This document shows positions 2,006-20,653 of a DNA stretch of 21,091 nt, one piece after another. The position numbers were made by a program, and so were the translations under genes. The stretch is from IMG/VR virus record IMGVR_UViG_3300045257_000086, positions 1 to 21,091 of that record, one strand, 5' to 3'. The number at the start of each line of letters is the position of its first letter. Positions within the stretch are counted from its first letter, which is position 1. The notes under the pieces are model-generated. The model saw nothing but the letters and a program-made list of their open reading frames with translations, ran no database searches and had not been told where the DNA came from. The DNA comes from a virus.

Positions 2006-3925
2006 TTACGGCTTAAGATCAACGTTGTGAGTATAAATGTATGCACCAGAAGTCTCACCAGCAGCATAACATTTGTTCCCGGTATTAACCAAAGCTACCT
2101 TTATTTCGCCTATGTTTTCGATGTGTGTCACAACATCCCAGAACGGGGCTGACCCAAACTCAGGTCTGTTTGTATATTGGACTGGTAGTTCCATTCCTTC
2201 GTGCATGTCGCGAACCCATACACTAGAACCGTCACGGAGGACGACTGGAGTAGTCTCAGAAATGCGCAATGTGGCACCGGTCTTCATATGCAAACGAACC
2301 GCTTTCTGCATGTCATAACGTATGCTACGCACTTCGCCTATACTGAACACTGGTGCGTCCATACCATATGACATGTCCATTACATTGACCGCGTCGCCGA
2401 TTGCTAACTGTTCAACGGTTACACCATCAGAGACGAAACTAGATGGATCAACACAGCCGGGGCCGGGATGCTCGGAATTGTAACGTTGGTATCTCCATGC
2501 TACGGTCGTATTGGCATGATGCCCATGACTATCGACAGCATGTACAACCACAGTACCATCGGTATATATTTCTTGTGTTCCGCAAATACCTGTACCAGCA
2601 AATACAATTTTTCCGCCTAATAGCAAACCGTTCCATGTCCACGTAGGATTATTTATTGGGTCACCGATTACTGCACTACCACTAAACCCATAACCTGATT
2701 CTGGAGTGAATCTTTCAATAGAAAAAGTTGCACCATGAGTATCGCGGGTCACGATTGTCCATGTATCCAACGTCACAACATATGGCCCATATCCGCCAGT
2801 AACCTCAAAATACAGGTTATCGCCGTCATCCAATGATGTAATCACTGTATGTGGCAATGCGCCACCTGTTCCACATCCGGACGCGCTTCCGCGAATGTCT
2901 TCAACCATCGCCATACCAACGTCAAAGCCGAATGTATATGGTGTGCCGTTGCCATTAAAGACATTGATTGCCAACGGTGGGGCAACGGACGGTGTCGGGC
3001 TTGGAGTACGCGTTGGTGTCGGTGTAGGCGTGTGTGTAGGCGTGTGCGTGACAGTTGGGGTCGGAGTATGCGTCGGTGTACGCGTTGGCGTTGGGGTCGG
3101 AGATGAACCAACGCTGTGAGATGGTGTAGGAGTCGGCGAAATCGTCGCTGTTACAGAATGCGTCGGGGTAATCGTCGGGGTAACTGGTGGAGTGTGTGTC
3201 GGAGTGACCGAAATCGTTGGAGTTGGGGTTGGACTAATGCCCGGTGTCGGTGAAGGTACGACATACGGAGTAGTCGCAATTGATCCGATACTATGATTTC
3301 CACGTATACCGATAATCATGTAATTGGCATATCCGGCACGAAGCGAAGACTCACCAACAAACCGATATTGCATGGTTACCAATCCACCGGCTGACGTATA
3401 GCAACGCATGTATTCTATTTCATCATATGTGGTGCCATCGATGAAATCGAATGGAGATACCGTCCATGAGCATTCGCTGTAATCGAAAACGTTACCCAAA
3501 TCATCAACCGGTTGTGGAAGTAATTGTCCATGAGCGATGACGCCTGCAACGCCTACAATATCGCTTCCCCGCATCAACGGCTTCCAGCCGGAGCCATCAT
3601 AATAATTTGTTCGATTGTTAGTAGAATCGAACCACCGCTGCCCTAAAGTAGGGTTATCCAGAAGACTACCGAAAGCGACAGACCTATCAGGTAAGAATGG
3701 GTGAACCGTGGCATCTCCACCAGTATTGACGATGGATGGACAGGAGAAACCTTCCAGCAAATGGAGAACGTTCTCATCAAATATTTCACCGTAATCTAAA
3801 CGTGTCTTGCCGACCAGAGCAATATCGAGCTTATCGGTTACCAAGGAAGACTTGGTTATCGTGATGGTACCCTTTGATTGGTCAGTGTATTTGATTACAT
3901 AGGAATTGTCGGAACAGTTAGCCAT
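2006..3925 (-). CDS. Tail-fibre/virion-like protein with Thr/Pro linker and C-terminal Hint domain
   Basis: 639 residues, ATG at 3925, preceded by a perfect TATAAATA at 3954-3961. Residues 1-210 are the N-terminal domain shared with the two downstream paralogues ([35 protein letters not shown]). Residues 224-317 are a Thr/Pro/Ser/His linker. Residues 318-480 are a beta-rich domain with [12 protein letters not shown], comparable to the other paralogue. Residues 491-634 look like a Hint domain: Cys491 in a block-A-like segment ([20 protein letters not shown]), a block-B-like [13 protein letters not shown] near 554-566, and a C-terminal block F/G ending YIYTHN at 629-634, five residues from the end. 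The block-B His of T-x-x-H is absent, and Val, not Cys/Ser/Thr, follows Asn. Hedgehog- or BIL-type cleavage or crosslinking is therefore more plausible than classical splicing, and activity is uncertain. Confidence 0.75.
2975..3256 (-). repeat. Thr/Pro-coding low-complexity tract (gene at 2006-3925)
   Basis: About 94 codons encoding repeated P-T-P-T, T-P-T-H-T-P and T-P-T-R-T-P units (linker residues 224-317). It resembles the tract at 1127-1354 and is longer. The two tracts are about 1.6 kb apart in the same orientation, so they could recombine. Confidence 0.85.
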
Positions 3926-9341: not shown

Positions 9342-9370
9342 ATTATATGGAAGATACCGCCCAGTGTCAA
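9342..9370 (-). promoter_or_regulatory. Perfect consensus sigma70 promoter
   Basis: On the minus strand TTGACA (9365-9370), exactly 17 bases, then TATAAT (9342-9347), in the 60-base gap between uvsW and the next gene. Both hexamers are 6/6. The start is predicted near 9335, about 22 bases before the ATG at 9313. It would drive the whole 9313-to-3974 operon with unmodified host polymerase. Confidence 0.88.
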
Positions 9371-14312: not shown

Positions 14313-14320
14313 GAGGTTTT
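14297..14320 (-). terminator. Weak terminator-like hairpin after the SWIM-type gene
   Basis: AAAACCT/AGGTTTT, a 7-bp stem with a 10-base loop. The 5' arm overlaps the stop codon at 14319-14321, and the 3' arm ends in TTTT. It is AT-rich, so weak. It would also insulate the gp32 promoter embedded in it. Confidence 0.4.
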
Positions 14321-14870
14321 ATTTCAGTATTTTCTCTGTCTTCAGTCTATTCGCAAGTGCCAACAAATGTTTACATACACCGGGAACGCGGTCAGGATTG
14401 ACCGGCGCACGTTCTGTTTTCTTTACATAGGTCGGAGGTGGCTTGCCTAACAGGCTGCCATTCTCGTAGTTCCATGTAGCGAATCTCCAATAGAAGTCTA
14501 GGCAATTACATGATACCTTTACATCTTCATTGGCATTGCGGGCCGGGATGATCCAATATGTAGCATCATCTGGAGCGACGAAACTGATAGCGTAAGCTGT
14601 TCCTTCTTCCACGTAACGCACATCACTGATTTGTATGTACGATTCGTATGTTTCATTCTGGCCTCTTGTTGTAGCTTTTGCAAGCAAAATTTTATCGGCG
14701 ACAGATGGAATTAATTCAACATCCGGAATTTGTACACGAACAGAACGTTGCTGGCGACCCTGATCGAAGAACACCTTAGTCGAAGAGGCCAATTGATTCA
14801 TAGTCGAAGTTTCCTTCAACTCCTCATCCACCCCAAGGAGGTCGTCAAGTTTAACGGTCAGAGTACGCAT
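14319..14870 (-). CDS. SWIM-type zinc-finger protein, function unknown
   Basis: 183 residues from the ATG at 14870, which has AAAGGA five bases upstream and sits 10 bases after the predicted late start; a longer frame would begin at GTG 14885. Residues 1-110 look beta-rich (SVRVQIPDVELIP, AYAISFVAPDDATYWIIP). The C-terminus has Cys121-x-Cys123 (VKVSCNCLDFYWRFATW) and, after a Pro/Lys-rich insertion, Cys166-x-His168 (GVCKHLLALANRL). This C-x-C-x(n)-C-x-H arrangement is that of SWIM zinc domains, known for DNA or protein binding. The long insert between the two halves (42 residues) is larger than in classical SWIM domains. Such proteins occur, from memory, in other large phages near late genes. 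A late, DNA-packaging or virion-linked role is inferred from the promoter and the position next to the large terminase. Confidence 0.72.
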   Translation of the reverse strand: MRTLTVKLDDLLGVDEELKETSTMNQLASSTKVFFDQGRQQRSVRVQIPDVELIPSVADKILLAKATTRGQNETYESYIQISDVRYVEEGTAYAISFVAPDDATYWIIPARNANEDVKVSCNCLDFYWRFATWNYENGSLLGKPPPTYVKKTERAPVNPDRVPGVCKHLLALANRLKTEKILK

Positions 14871-14885
14871 AGAAGTCCTTTTCAC

Positions 14886-14893
14886 TATTTATA
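14886..14893 (-). promoter_or_regulatory. T4-type late promoter octamer TATAAATA (SWIM-type gene)
   Basis: Perfect octamer overlapping the stop codon of the large terminase (14889-14891). The predicted start at about 14880 makes a 10-base leader that begins directly with the AAGGA ribosome site. Confidence 0.78.
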
Positions 14894-16481
14894 GTGCAAT
14901 GGGCTTGATATAGATGAAATGGTCGTCTGGATCGTATCCGATCTTTCCATCCTCTGAGGACAGCCAGTCTGTCTTGTTCTCAAAGGAATACATCATACTG
15001 TAGGCCGACATGTCGAACTCGACCATTTGTTCTATGATACGAATGATGATCAACAACGCTGAAATACAGTCGTCAGTCGCGCCCAAGTTGGCAGCATAGC
15101 TACCATCTTTACGCACATAATTCTGCATTTCCTTTATAAGCGTCAACGAATGGAACGTAAATGCCCCTCGTTCCACCATTTCCTTCATCTTGATACAGGT
15201 GGCCAGCTTGTTACGACCAGTAGTGGTCATACCCAGCTTGTTCCCCTTGACACCCGGCGTCATACCGACACCAGCTTTGATAGGTTCCGAAACCAGCAAC
15301 GCATTTGGTTGATTTTCATCCACTTCATACAACGCAATGACACCGTTTCCGATACCATTGTTTTCCACAGAGAAGTATACGCTACAACCGTATGAAGAAA
15401 TGTACTTGAGCAGGTTCTTCAAACGAGCATACAGCAATGGCGTACTGGTTAGGTTACCTCTGAATTCCATCACCTGTTCCAGCTTGGGGAAGCTGAAGAC
15501 CTGAATTACTGAATAGTCTTCACCGAGGCCGACAGACGGGTCAACCGATACCAGATATGTGGCACCCTTTTCAATTGGTGCCCAGAAGATTTGTTCACCG
15601 ATGTTGAAGACTGGAACCGTGCGATCCTTGATGCCTCGTTCAAGCTGTGCCAATACAACCGCGTCAAATAGGTTACCATCGGCACTCAAGAAGTCACATT
15701 CATACTCCTGCTTCCATTTACGTTCACCAAGCAAACCAATTTGAGTTTCTTTGAACTTGGCATCGCGTCCCGGTGGTGCATCCCATGGAATATGCTTGTG
15801 TTTGAAATCGTTGTTACCGAGTTCTGCGCCACGATACAACACAGCAAATTTGTTACTATCACCATTTGGGGTGGATGCGATGATACATGATCCACCGGTT
15901 GCTAGCGTTGGGCTTACGGAGTCCCAGAACTCTTCCTGAATATGTGGACGAACGAACGCGAACTCGTCACAAAATAGCAAGGAAATTGCGAGACCACGGC
16001 CCGAGTCCGAGGCAGTAGTGGTTGCGAGAATACGCGATTTGTTATCGAATGCACATTCGTGCTTGTTCCAGCTATTGTCATTGACACCCGGCTTCAACCA
16101 ATCCGGCAACTCTTCGTAAGCGTACTGAATCTTACCGATGATTTCCTTGGCATTCGTGGATTTGTTGGATACAACGAGGATGGTCTTGTCATCGTGAAAA
16201 ATAGCGTACCACAGCAAAAAAGCGCAAGTCGTTTCGGTTTTACCTGTCTGACGGGCCGACAAGAGAATGTTGTATCGATTCTCGACGTACATCCGCATCA
16301 CTTCTTCCTGATAACCATACAGGTCGAATTGGATGCGGCCACGGATTGGGTGTTTGATTTTTACATAAGTACGCGCAAAGTATATGGGATCATGCATACA
16401 CTTGACGAATTCTGTTACCTGTTCCGGCGTATATTCGTCGGTGGTTCCAGATTTTTTCAATCGCGGATTTCTACGTGCCAT
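14889..16481 (-). CDS. 17: Terminase large subunit (gp17), packaging ATPase/nuclease
   Basis: 530 residues; ATG at 16481 with AAAGG nearby and a perfect late octamer at 16501-16508. The ATPase domain has Walker A S-A-R-Q-T-G-K-T (75-82) and Walker B L-L-F-C-D-E (168-173), followed by S-T-P-N-G (203-207), the coupling region. The nuclease domain has the RNase H-like acid triad: Asp314 in V-S-V-D-P-S-V-G, Glu373 in S-V-E-N-N-G, and Asp470/Asp471 in A-T-D-D-C-I-S-A-L. The N-terminal region 17-60 (YTPEQVTEFVKCMHDPIYFA, then Y-G-Y-Q-E-E) is like T4-type gp17. It docks on the portal, cuts concatemers and pumps DNA into the head with the small subunit. T4 gp17 is 610 residues; the shorter length is common in other T4-like phages. 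All catalytic residues are intact. Confidence 0.96.
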   Translation of the reverse strand: MARRNPRLKKSGTTDEYTPEQVTEFVKCMHDPIYFARTYVKIKHPIRGRIQFDLYGYQEEVMRMYVENRYNILLSARQTGKTETTCAFLLWYAIFHDDKTILVVSNKSTNAKEIIGKIQYAYEELPDWLKPGVNDNSWNKHECAFDNKSRILATTTASDSGRGLAISLLFCDEFAFVRPHIQEEFWDSVSPTLATGGSCIIASTPNGDSNKFAVLYRGAELGNNDFKHKHIPWDAPPGRDAKFKETQIGLLGERKWKQEYECDFLSADGNLFDAVVLAQLERGIKDRTVPVFNIGEQIFWAPIEKGATYLVSVDPSVGLGEDYSVIQVFSFPKLEQVMEFRGNLTSTPLLYARLKNLLKYISSYGCSVYFSVENNGIGNGVIALYEVDENQPNALLVSEPIKAGVGMTPGVKGNKLGMTTTGRNKLATCIKMKEMVERGAFTFHSLTLIKEMQNYVRKDGSYAANLGATDDCISALLIIIRIIEQMVEFDMSAYSMMYSFENKTDWLSSEDGKIGYDPDDHFIYIKPIAL

Positions 16482-16500: not shown

Positions 16501-16508
16501 TATTTATA
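16501..16508 (-). promoter_or_regulatory. T4-type late promoter octamer TATAAATA (gp17)
   Basis: Perfect octamer in the 44-base gap before the large terminase. The predicted start is near 16495, with a 14-base leader. Confidence 0.78.
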
Positions 16509-16525: not shown

Positions 16526-18217
16526 TTACCTGCGCCACTTTCCATCTATGATATGAATCAAGGTGCGTTTACCGTCTGGATAGACGATAGCGTGCGAACA
16601 AATCCACGAACTTGGCCCGCGCTTGTATTCCAGATTGAGATAGGATGACACACCAACCTGTACACATCCCTCATAGATGCCCGGAGAATGTGAGTGGCCA
16701 ATGACTAACTTGGTTGACAGTTTGGCAAGATTTTTGATTGAACCGCGTGCCCCGTTGGGGCCTACGTCACCATGGAATGCCAATTCAATTCCGTTCAATC
16801 GGAAACTGTCATCACGTTTCAGGAAGGTCGTTTCCCCGATAGATTTCAGCCCCCTCGCGGTATCTGGGTTGTGGCACCAGAATTCGAACGGGTCTATCGA
16901 ATCGAACCCAGTCCGGTTCATCCGAATATTTTTCATTTGGTGATACTTCATGTAATAGTAGAACTGAGCGTTCTCATAGTCTCCACGAATGTCAGCCTCA
17001 CGTAACCAACGGTCAAAGGCTTCGTCGTGGTTCGACTTGACAACTATATTCTTTGTGCCCGGTCGCGTAACACGGTCAATGAAGTCGGCAGCTTGTTGCA
17101 AGCCCTTCTCAACGTTATTACGTCCAAAACGATGCTTGCCTGCGCCGATAATATCGTTGCCACGATGATGGTGGTTACGGGCGTAGTAATCGGTCAGGTC
17201 ATGGAAGAGATAGTTTTCCGGATTGACGACGTTTGCCAAGGAATCGACACTAGTGTATGTCGCCGCTTCAACTGCTGGGTCGATGAACTCTGCATGGATG
17301 TCGCCTGCGACCAACGCTGCGGCTCTGTGACCGTAGGTTACTCCTGTTGGGGTGTACAGGCCGTCCAGATCGTAAAACTCGCCTGTGGAAGCGTCAGCGT
17401 GGATATGGCGTATGTGGAAATTGCCGTTATCTTCGATTTCGATGACCAATGCCGCAAGACTGTGATGGAAAGCTCCTTTCCAACCGGCCTTTGAATCCGT
17501 GTAATTTTGGATCGTAACCGCGCCGGTTGTCGTGATGATCTTCGGATATGCGTTGTTGATAGTTGGTACCGATTTCAGTTGAATCTTAGGATGGCCGACA
17601 ATGGATGAATCCATACCGGTATGTCCTTCAAAGCCAGAAAGCGGTTCACTTGCTGTTGGCTGAATCTTGATACCACCAAGGATAACGAGTTTGTCCGTCA
17701 GTCGGACATTGTCTTCGATGATATATGGGTGCAATGGGGGTGCCCACCAATCGCCATCTTGATCTTGCGCTATCCAGATGGACGTTGGGTTCTTGTACCG
17801 ATAAGGGATGACAAGCAATTGAGCATCGTGTACGTTGCAATACGTCATCAGCGATGCAAAGAATTCTGGTGAAATCGGAGTGGCATTTTGGGCCGAAGTC
17901 ACAACGTAACGCTGGAACCCGGAGATATTTCGTGTAACCTTCCCAATCCCGTCGTTCTTTTCGATGGTACTCAAAAAGTTGTAATAGGCTTCAAGCTTGT
18001 CTTGCTCAAGAAATCCATTACCCTTTGATTCGAGAATGGCTAAATTGAGGCCAGTTTCCTTGTAGATAGCCAATCTGCGACGCAACAGAGAATCCGGCAA
18101 AATACCAAGTATCTTGGCAAATTGTTCACGGGTGAGTTTCGCTTTGATTGCTGCTTTGTATCTACTGATGAATTCCGGTGCGCTTATCTTGTTGTCTTCT
18201 TTCTTATCGGTAATCAT
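16526..18217 (-). CDS. Phage T5 A1-like metallophosphoesterase with N-terminal helix-turn-helix
   Basis: 563 residues from the ATG at 18217, preferred because GGAG stands five bases before it; an alternative ATG at 18238 overlaps the small terminase stop (ATGA). Residues 28-50 (LTREQFAKILGILPDSLLRRR) look like a helix-turn-helix. Calcineurin-like metal-binding motifs come in order: G-D-I-H-A-E (305-310), N-H-H-H-R-G-N-D (348-355), K-S-N-H-D-E (394-399), H-G-D-V-G-P-N-G-A-R-G-S (482-493) and G-H-S-H-S-P-G (507-513). The ending, with GPSSW, Y-P-D-G-K-R-T-L and N/D-G-K-W-R, matches the T5 A1 type of pre-early DNA-transfer proteins as I recall them. T5 A1 is required for second-step DNA entry and host DNA degradation. 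A DNA-acting phosphoesterase or nuclease role is inferred. Insertion between the two terminase genes is unusual. Confidence 0.8.
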   Translation of the reverse strand: MITDKKEDNKISAPEFISRYKAAIKAKLTREQFAKILGILPDSLLRRRLAIYKETGLNLAILESKGNGFLEQDKLEAYYNFLSTIEKNDGIGKVTRNISGFQRYVVTSAQNATPISPEFFASLMTYCNVHDAQLLVIPYRYKNPTSIWIAQDQDGDWWAPPLHPYIIEDNVRLTDKLVILGGIKIQPTASEPLSGFEGHTGMDSSIVGHPKIQLKSVPTINNAYPKIITTTGAVTIQNYTDSKAGWKGAFHHSLAALVIEIEDNGNFHIRHIHADASTGEFYDLDGLYTPTGVTYGHRAAALVAGDIHAEFIDPAVEAATYTSVDSLANVVNPENYLFHDLTDYYARNHHHRGNDIIGAGKHRFGRNNVEKGLQQAADFIDRVTRPGTKNIVVKSNHDEAFDRWLREADIRGDYENAQFYYYMKYHQMKNIRMNRTGFDSIDPFEFWCHNPDTARGLKSIGETTFLKRDDSFRLNGIELAFHGDVGPNGARGSIKNLAKLSTKLVIGHSHSPGIYEGCVQVGVSSYLNLEYKRGPSSWICSHAIVYPDGKRTLIHIIDGKWRR

Positions 18218-18234
18218 GCTATCTCCAAGGGCCT

Positions 18235-18681
18235 TCATTCTTTCTTTTCGTCTTTATTTCGAAGCATTTCCATCAAGTCATTGCGAGTGATATGCAAATT
18301 CTGATTGACAGTTTGTGGTGGTGCAGTCTTCTTCGCCGTCAATTTGTCCTTGTATTCCTTGATTCTGGCCTTCACGTTTAACGCATTCAAAGCCATGTTC
18401 AGGTGTTGTACTGAAACTTCAGCCATACGAGGGATGTAACGCGCTTCTACGCTGTCCATTTCATCTTGGATACGCTCGTGCCCCGACATTGCCTTGTCAT
18501 ACACTTCTTGGATGTCGGAATCTATTTCTGCGTCTTTGTTGTCATAGAGCGGGCTAACGACTAAATCTGTTGTTACCTGCTCTACACGTTCCACTAGAGT
18601 GCTTCCGGGGTCTATCTCAAAATAGTTCTCTAGTGGATGTTCTATCTGTTTAGTGACAAGTTGTTTGGTTTTGTTGCTCAT
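18235..18681 (-). CDS. 16: Terminase small subunit (gp16-like)
   Basis: 148 residues, ATG at 18681, GGGG upstream and a perfect late octamer at 18702-18709. There is a Pro/Glu-rich N-terminus (PLENYFEIDPGSTLVERV), a central helical hairpin (about 54-115: D-S-D-I-Q-E-V-Y-D-K-A-M, then V-Q-H-L-N-M-A-L-N-A-L-N-V-K-A-R-I-K-E-Y-K-D-K-L) and a C-terminal segment VNQNLHITRNDLMEMLRNKD. The order acidic N-terminus, long antiparallel helices and a short T-x-x-D-L-M-x-x-[LI] end is that of T4 gp16 (164 residues). gp16 forms rings that recognise DNA and stimulate gp17. Position upstream of gp17 supports this, although one gene intervenes. Sequence similarity is low, as usual for small terminases. Confidence 0.68.
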   Translation of the reverse strand: MSNKTKQLVTKQIEHPLENYFEIDPGSTLVERVEQVTTDLVVSPLYDNKDAEIDSDIQEVYDKAMSGHERIQDEMDSVEARYIPRMAEVSVQHLNMALNALNVKARIKEYKDKLTAKKTAPPQTVNQNLHITRNDLMEMLRNKDEKKE

Positions 18682-18701: not shown

Positions 18702-18709
18702 TATTTATA
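18702..18709 (-). promoter_or_regulatory. T4-type late promoter octamer TATAAATA (small terminase)
   Basis: Perfect octamer containing the TAA stop of the upstream gene (18705-18707). The predicted start is near 18696, with a 15-base leader. It would also serve the A1-like gene, which has no octamer of its own. Confidence 0.78.
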
Positions 18710-18986: not shown

Positions 18987-20600
18987 TCAGATTGATGTGA
19001 AGTAGTTAATCAGCAACTCGTGATCAAGTTCGTCAAGTTCGCTAGCTATTTCTTTTTCGTTTTTCTTATGTTGCGGTGGCGGCAATGAAGGTGCATCCGG
19101 CACCACGATTTTTGGCTGCGGTTTTACAACATCAGGAACGTCATCAGTGATACCCGTAACATCCTTTATGACGCGTCCGGTGTATTTTCCAACTTTCGTC
19201 TTTACCTTGGAATCATTCTCCACTGTTTGGAGGAATTTGTCTACCTTATCCGGAATTTCAGTGATAGATTGTGGATCAACACCCGGAAGATTTATATCCG
19301 TATCGATCAAGACTGCGTCTTTTGAAGCGTCCATTTTCTTACGCTTCTTCTTCAACATTGCAGACACTGTCTTGGCGTCGCCGTCTGGATCAGTGATACG
19401 CAAACACGTTGTATCAAATTGAAGCATGGAACTCTTGCCGACACCATCCGCCGAGCGTGTCTTGAGGAAGTGAGCTATCAATTCTCCACGGATTTTCATG
19501 GCGGGATCGGAATACAAGGAAATGTAGTTATCCACTTCGTTTACCTTGGCAAGACCACCGGCCACAACACCTTGTGTTGGAGCATTGTTGGTGAGGGCGT
19601 CACGATTCTGCTGTGAAGCTGTGATACCGATTGCGTTGATTTCTTTGATCAGTTCATACAATTCCTGAGCCTTCAACTGATCCTGCTCATAACCTTGGAG
19701 ATTTTTCACGCCGCCATTCGGACGCATCTTGTCAAGATAGTCAACGATCACAACGTCAGGGTTGTACCCACGTTCCAATTGGTACTGTTTGATCAAGGAA
19801 CGCATGTCGTTGGCAGTCGAGCCTGCCGGGAGTTCCTTGACAATGAATGATCCTGCTCCAGCATCCTTGATATTGAGGATGGAGCTAGCGATTCCGGGAA
19901 TCTTCGATTTCCATTCTTTCGCGTCAACCCCGGACATGATGTAGGAGTTTCGCAGGAATATCATGGAATCTGGCAACTCAAGCGATATCAACAGCACGTT
20001 CATCTTGTGAAGTGCTGAATAATTGACACCGAGATTGGCCAACATGATGGATTTACCGACACCGGAGTTGGCAGAGAAGAGCGTTAATTGCTTTCTAGCC
20101 AATCCACCGTTAAGGTGTTTATCGAGACCATCAATACATGTCGAGTAGTTGACCTCTGTGTTGAGAAGGCTATTGAGCCTTGTCTCTGGATCATCGTACA
20201 TGTCTATACCGATATCACGCTGAAGTGATATATTGAATGCTTTCTTGATGCATTCCATCATACCGCCGAGGTTGCCCTCTTCGATCAGATCAAGCGAATC
20301 GTGAACGGCCTGAAACATGGCACGCTCTTTACAAAACTTCTCGACGGTCGAGCAGGTATACTCTACAAGCGCCTTCGTCATAGTTTCCGTTCTTGATTTC
20401 AAGCCAAGATCGAATTTGGCATTCAAAATGTCGAAGGTCGGAAGTGCGGTGTAGGTTTTGTAATAGTCGGAGACGAACGCGACGGCATTACGATATTCCG
20501 GATCGAAGTAATCACCTGATATAATTGGCGAGCATCTTGCGTAGGTATCAGGGAACGAGAGGAGATTCTCGATGATTAACTTCTGTTCATTCGAATTCAT
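18987..20600 (-). CDS. 41: Replicative DNA helicase (gp41, DnaB-type)
   Basis: 537 residues; ATG at 20600 with GGAG six bases upstream and a strong sigma70-like promoter just before it. The N-terminal helical domain (1-135) is followed by a RecA-like core: T-C-I-D-G-L-D-K-H-L-N-G-G-L (154-167), Walker A S-A-N-S-G-V-G-K-S (176-184), S-L-E-L-P (206-210), Walker B D-V-V-I-V-D-Y-L-D (282-290) and the DnaB motif T-A-S-Q-Q-N-R (327-333). T4 gp41 is 475 residues. The extra length is a C-terminal extension from about 410, Lys-rich then Pro-rich (VVKPQPKIVVPDAPSLPPPQ), ending in an acidic helix. As gp41 it would unwind the fork 5'-3' on the lagging strand with the primase gp61, which is not in the window. 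Confidence 0.94.
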   Translation of the reverse strand: MNSNEQKLIIENLLSFPDTYARCSPIISGDYFDPEYRNAVAFVSDYYKTYTALPTFDILNAKFDLGLKSRTETMTKALVEYTCSTVEKFCKERAMFQAVHDSLDLIEEGNLGGMMECIKKAFNISLQRDIGIDMYDDPETRLNSLLNTEVNYSTCIDGLDKHLNGGLARKQLTLFSANSGVGKSIMLANLGVNYSALHKMNVLLISLELPDSMIFLRNSYIMSGVDAKEWKSKIPGIASSILNIKDAGAGSFIVKELPAGSTANDMRSLIKQYQLERGYNPDVVIVDYLDKMRPNGGVKNLQGYEQDQLKAQELYELIKEINAIGITASQQNRDALTNNAPTQGVVAGGLAKVNEVDNYISLYSDPAMKIRGELIAHFLKTRSADGVGKSSMLQFDTTCLRITDPDGDAKTVSAMLKKKRKKMDASKDAVLIDTDINLPGVDPQSITEIPDKVDKFLQTVENDSKVKTKVGKYTGRVIKDVTGITDDVPDVVKPQPKIVVPDAPSLPPPQHKKNEKEIASELDELDHELLINYFTSI

Positions 20601-20623: not shown

Positions 20624-20653
20624 ATTATAGTTCGTCTTCGAGCGTTTTGTCAA
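20624..20653 (-). promoter_or_regulatory. Sigma70 promoter for gp41
   Basis: TTGACA (20648-20653), 18 bases, TATAAT (20624-20629) on the minus strand; both hexamers are 6/6. The TATAAT overlaps the stop codon of the upstream gene. The start is near 20617, about 17 bases before the ATG. Confidence 0.82.

Follow-up and report, generated by a model that had tools for sequence, protein, structure and literature searches.

The window analysed here, 21,091 nt in length, comprises positions 1 to 21,091 of IMG/VR record IMGVR_UViG_3300045257_000086. On its minus strand, a gene for a gp41-like replicative helicase (18987-20600; PF03796, E 6e-13; phrog_19, E 3e-61) precedes a block of three genes: the small terminase subunit TerS (gp16-like, 148 aa, 18235-18681; PHROG 445, E 1.2e-8), a predicted metallophosphoesterase of the phage T5 A1 family (16526-18217, 563 aa; identified by PHROG 1745, tblastn and a structure model), and the large terminase subunit TerL (gp17-like, 530 aa, 14889-16481; PF03237, E 7e-14; PF17289, E 4e-5). 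Genes for gp32 and UvsX come after the block. PHROG 445 matches TerS in 26 of 26 aligned relatives (best E 2.9e-30), and TerL is by its sequence a T4-type large terminase. An earlier note on this DNA had proposed an A1-like gene that splits gp16 from gp17, and both the open reading frame and its placement are confirmed, with TerS upstream and TerL downstream.

Two starts are available to the A1 reading frame. The longest form begins at an in-frame ATG at 18238 (16526-18238, minus strand, 570 aa), within an ATGA that also contains the TerS stop codon. The start at 18217 is consistent with the alignment and has the better ribosome-binding site, a Shine-Dalgarno-like GGAG at 18223-18226 (minus strand) found by direct reading of the sequence.

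Family, gene order and entry of A1

Sequence comparison places window A1, over its full length, in the T5 A1 family. Its match to PHROG 1745 ("DNA transfer protein") has an E value of 2.7e-159 (residues 97-569 against profile positions 79-541 of 542), and phage T5 A1 itself (AY543070, T5.004) is homologous over about 460 residues at 31-34% identity, with the same invariant metal motifs; the kinship with T5 A1 suggested earlier is thereby borne out. A tblastn search with window A1 matched 1125 phage records; its closest relatives are those of Stenotrophomonas phages RAS14 and CM1 and of Xanthomonas phage XacN1 (each 53% identical). The XacN1 gene is ORF263, annotated earlier as a "putative T5 A1-like protein". 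No match to the PHROG 1745 profile is found in Phosso, PBECO4, GAP32, PA5oct, Atu_ph07 and SCTP-2, jumbo phages that are more distant. A TerS relative was also sought at the equivalent place in the Rak2-like phage GAP32, and that candidate was rejected for lack of similarity. Six contigs binned as Patescibacteria (Lloydbacteria, Kaiserbacteria and Parcubacteria; L102, L103, L105, L109, L110 and L112) carry A1 homologs at 39-41% identity.

The order gp41-TerS-A1-TerL recurs in XacN1, RAS14 and about 20 IMG/VR contigs (A1 identity 48-59%), and a contig binned as a WWE3 bacterium also carries gp41-TerS-A1. Among relatives that share this order, the number of additional genes flanking A1 on each side ranges from none to several; XacN1 and RAS14 have extra genes between A1 and TerL, whereas in the window TerL follows A1 directly. 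The exception is relative L011, where A1 lies 39 kb from TerL, yet a TerL-ATPase-like gene comes directly after A1. The A1 family and the XacN1 annotation were already known; no published remark on the TerS-A1-TerL linkage or on the late promoter described below was found in the open-access literature searched.

Several other genes of the terminase region deserve mention. Directly after A1, several relatives encode a truncated paralog of the TerL ATPase domain that matches PHROG 5989 or, weakly, PHROG 2 (L041:12184-12936, L026:10808-11449, L007:11658-12287 and L011:11647-12207); some of these paralogs have a degenerate Walker A motif, and the window has none. Nine relatives encode a protein of about 365 aa, with no family match, between TerS and A1 (L007:8879-9979 and its counterparts). 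The gene that follows TerL in the window (14319-14885, minus strand) is conserved across the clade and ends in a C-terminal SWIM-like zinc-finger pattern (CxC...CxH).

Because loci collected by way of A1 are biased toward A1, a reverse search was run from TerL. A1 is present in 0 of the 80 TerL-seeded loci, and eight of these contigs, searched over their whole length (up to 155 kb, although they may be fragments), contain no PHROG 1745 match. In the three closest relatives that lack A1 (L140, L141 and L143), a gap of 30-79 nt separates the homologous TerS and TerL genes; this is the empty site, and it agrees with the adjacency of the two genes that had been presumed to be usual. In a TerL tree, obtained by a quick search with no bootstrapping, all A1 carriers group in a single clade with an SH-aLRT value of 95, and A1 and TerL distances are correlated (Mantel r 0.83, p 2e-4). 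The empty site and the single carrier clade argue that A1 probably entered once and was then inherited vertically, which is the simplest reading of these comparisons.

Catalytic core, N-terminal module and inserts

The earlier note had read from the sequence a calcineurin-like motif series and an A1-type ending (GHSHSPG, GPSSW and GKWR), and all five motifs and the ending are found. With residues numbered from the 18217 start and conservation taken from an alignment of 68 homologs, the motifs, all on the minus strand, are motif I (G-D-x-H, 17294-17305), motif II (H-D-x-x-D...N-H-H, 17168-17203), motif III (S-N-H-D-E, 17021-17035), motif IV (H-G-D-x-G-P-N-G, 16751-16774) and motif V (G-H-S-H-S-P-G, 16679-16699). 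The eight predicted metal ligands (D306 and H308 in motif I, D340 in motif II, N396 and H397 in motif III, H482 in motif IV, H508 and H510 in motif V) are each identical in 68/68 homologs. G305 of motif I is likewise invariant (68/68), and D343 and H350 of motif II are present in 67/68. In the GPSSW/GKW ending, W538 is found in 68/68 and W561 in 62/68. The protein thus carries the motifs of the calcineurin-like superfamily (D-x-H / GD / NH(D/E) / H / GHxH), with motif II reading HDxxD, H replacing G, in most members, and phosphoesterase activity is predicted.

A confident structure model of A1 built from 68 sequences (pLDDT 91.8) shows an N-terminal helix-turn-helix (HTH) followed by a calcineurin-like phosphoesterase. 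The HTH, suspected beforehand, is seen in the model as helices 13-25, 30-37 and 41-55 (residues 13-55, codons at 18053-18181, minus strand) and weakly in Pfam. Among viral models, the best Foldseek match is A1 of the Chakrabartyvirus pf16 (TM 0.78; 39% identical to window A1), and calcineurin-like phosphoesterases come next at probability 1.0. In the PDB, where a sequence search finds no solved relative of A1, the best structural match is DP1, the exonuclease subunit of archaeal PolD (E 6.7e-4), and the metallophosphodiesterase MPPED2 stands lower among the weak matches. By fold and motifs, DP1 and other calcineurin-like phosphoesterases belong to the same superfamily as A1, but the TM score to DP1 is only 0.28-0.34 and window A1 matches no Pfam phosphoesterase model. 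The A1 protein of L011 reaches PF00149 (E 1.1e-4).

Window A1 is not alone in having an HTH or another N-terminus of DNA-binding type. An HTH is present in the jumbo clade, in pf16 (where it is clear) and in several other members of the family, a zinc-ribbon-like N-terminus is found in 32 of 42 non-jumbo homologs, and four have no module. The occurrence of exchangeable DNA-binding-type N-termini on one catalytic core suggests a nucleic-acid substrate. We also considered whether A1 replaces the gp47/SbcD nuclease. Each A1-bearing genome searched encodes several further calcineurin-like proteins above the Pfam cut-off, and so A1 is probably not such a stand-in.

In two relatives, A1 is interrupted by in-frame inserts that look, from their sequences, like inteins (L034:6070-7056, 329 aa; L039:9327-10307, 327 aa). 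The inserts are 65% alike, have Cys as first residue and Asn as last (ahead of a Ser), and sit at exactly the same site within motif V (GHSH^SPG). They fall below threshold with the Pfam and NCBIfam intein HMMs, and a structure model of the insert is of low confidence (pLDDT 39). Inteins prefer essential active sites, and so these inserts suggest strong constraint on the motif V site, which would fit A1 being an enzyme under strong constraint. No reports of A1 inteins were met in the literature searched. Large terminase genes also contain inserts (L008:3396-6173, and those of L028, L039 and L041), and the one in L008 matches Intein_splicing (2e-10) and LAGLIDADG (6e-17). A group I intron was rejected as the explanation for the interrupted A1 and TerL genes, since there is no Rfam match and the A1 inserts are in frame.

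Transcription and possible roles of A1

Six copies of the T4-type late promoter motif TATAAATA are present in the window, every one on the coding strand; 0.51 would be expected, and none of 100 shuffled sequences reaches six. A motif scan places one copy before TerS-A1 (18702-18709, minus strand) and another before TerL (16501-16508, minus strand). Across the clade, ATAAATA is found before TerS in 22 of 29 members (1.5 expected from shuffles) and before TerL in 16 of 23 (1.7 expected), but directly before A1 in 0 of 30. TerS and A1 are nearly contiguous in the window and adjacent or overlapping in many clade members. The late promoter that had been claimed ahead of A1 therefore exists as a motif before TerS, whereas A1 has no late promoter of its own. 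With a late motif before TerS and none before A1, A1 would most simply be expressed from the late TerS message as its second cistron, and by the mark of a T4-type late gene (TATAAATA upstream on the same transcript) it would count as late by way of the TerS motif. Late leaders seemed on inspection to begin with conserved hairpins, but this idea was rejected: 115 late-motif leaders were folded, and their mean z was -0.08 compared to -0.45 for controls.

These results can be assembled into a model in which A1 is a late-acting DNA phosphodiesterase of this clade that works at the packaging stage, a reading to which we assign a probability of roughly 45%. According to this model, an ancestor of the XacN1-like jumbo phages would have gained, a single time and between TerS and TerL, a predicted metal-dependent phosphodiesterase that belongs to the T5 A1 family and carries an N-terminal DNA-binding module, and the gene would have been kept there since. 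Read from the late TerS transcript, on which it is the second cistron, A1 would be made during DNA packaging, and it could then cut or trim DNA at that time, acting either on branched or damaged concatemers or on leftover host and competitor DNA. The structural match to PolD DP1, which acts on DNA, counts in favor of a DNA-processing A1. The placement of A1 would not by itself prove a role shared with terminase, and both the possible early production of A1 by read-through and the distant location of the gene in L011 count against a late role in packaging. A narrower version, in which A1 is a dedicated packaging part in XacN1-like jumbo phages that either processes DNA at the motor or is carried in the virion for use at injection, is put forward more tentatively and falls clearly short of an even chance.

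The best surviving alternative, though an unlikely one, is that A1 acts early as in T5, in host-DNA degradation or host shut-off, and that the terminase site is a neutral landing place. T5 A1 mutants do not degrade host DNA (PMC13250531; PMC8541194). Many other phages keep A1 amid replication genes; in pf16, for example, it follows DNA primase in the replication region, with no annotated terminase within 7 kb. A perfect sigma70-like promoter (TTGACA-N18-TATAAT, 12/12; 20624-20653, minus strand) lies before gp41, and no terminator-like site was found between gp41 and TerS in 16 of the 17 loci checked, so that early A1 production could occur by read-through on a transcript headed by gp41. However, only 7 of 27 relatives have the strict sigma70-like pattern ahead of gp41, and the closest promoter motif to A1 is a conserved late one. 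The genetic setting is also different. In T5, A1 is a pre-early gene within the terminal repeat that is transferred in the first step, near A2, an essential partner for DNA transfer, whereas window A1 follows TerS behind a late motif. A2 was not found in five A1-bearing genomes of the window's clade, and the 66-kb terminal repeats of XacN1 do not include its A1 gene (152-154 kb). The two-step-transfer setting of T5 is thus inapplicable as it stands to window A1 or its clade.

Late synthesis, as inferred from the promoter motifs, could be reconciled with the early role known in T5 if A1 were carried in the capsid and, once injected, immediately attacked the host DNA in the next cell. This possibility seems improbable, as no packaging signal was identified, and ORF263 is not named in the text on XacN1 virion proteomics (PMC5852040). 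A somewhat more doubtful proposal is that A1 is mainly an RNA polymerase-binding regulator, with the phosphoesterase domain secondary. T5 A1 co-immunoprecipitates with RNA polymerase, and the A1-bound polymerase shows altered transcription on T5 DNA (PMC3556154); the N-terminal HTH would suit such a function, but the invariant metal ligands and the intein-like inserts in an active-site motif point to an enzyme. Least probable of all is the degradation of a cyclic-nucleotide alarm signal to counter host immunity, a role that a comparative jumbo-phage study predicted for orthologs of T5 A1 (PMC7824862) and in line with the weak match to MPPED2, since most A1 homologs have DNA-binding-type N-terminal modules and the gene is placed late, alongside terminase.

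If the packaging-stage model is correct, the A1 family would include an enzyme with a late role, unlike the pre-early A1 of T5, and these jumbo phages would have A1 as a third player next to their TerS-TerL motor. T5 A1 is essential, but its biochemistry has been hard to pin down because mutants show many simultaneous effects. A lineage in which A1 is freed from A2 and from two-step DNA transfer, and tied instead to terminase, would offer a cleaner system for analyzing A1 function.

Two further features lie elsewhere in the window, both on the minus strand. A second perfect sigma70-like promoter (TTGACA-N17-TATAAT, 9342-9370) closely follows UvsW and precedes an uncharacterised gene. The reading frame at 2006-3925 encodes a protein rich in threonine and proline that may be a tail protein; its C-terminus resembles a Hint/intein segment (CVDPSSFV...THNVDLKP), with no match in Pfam or NCBIfam.
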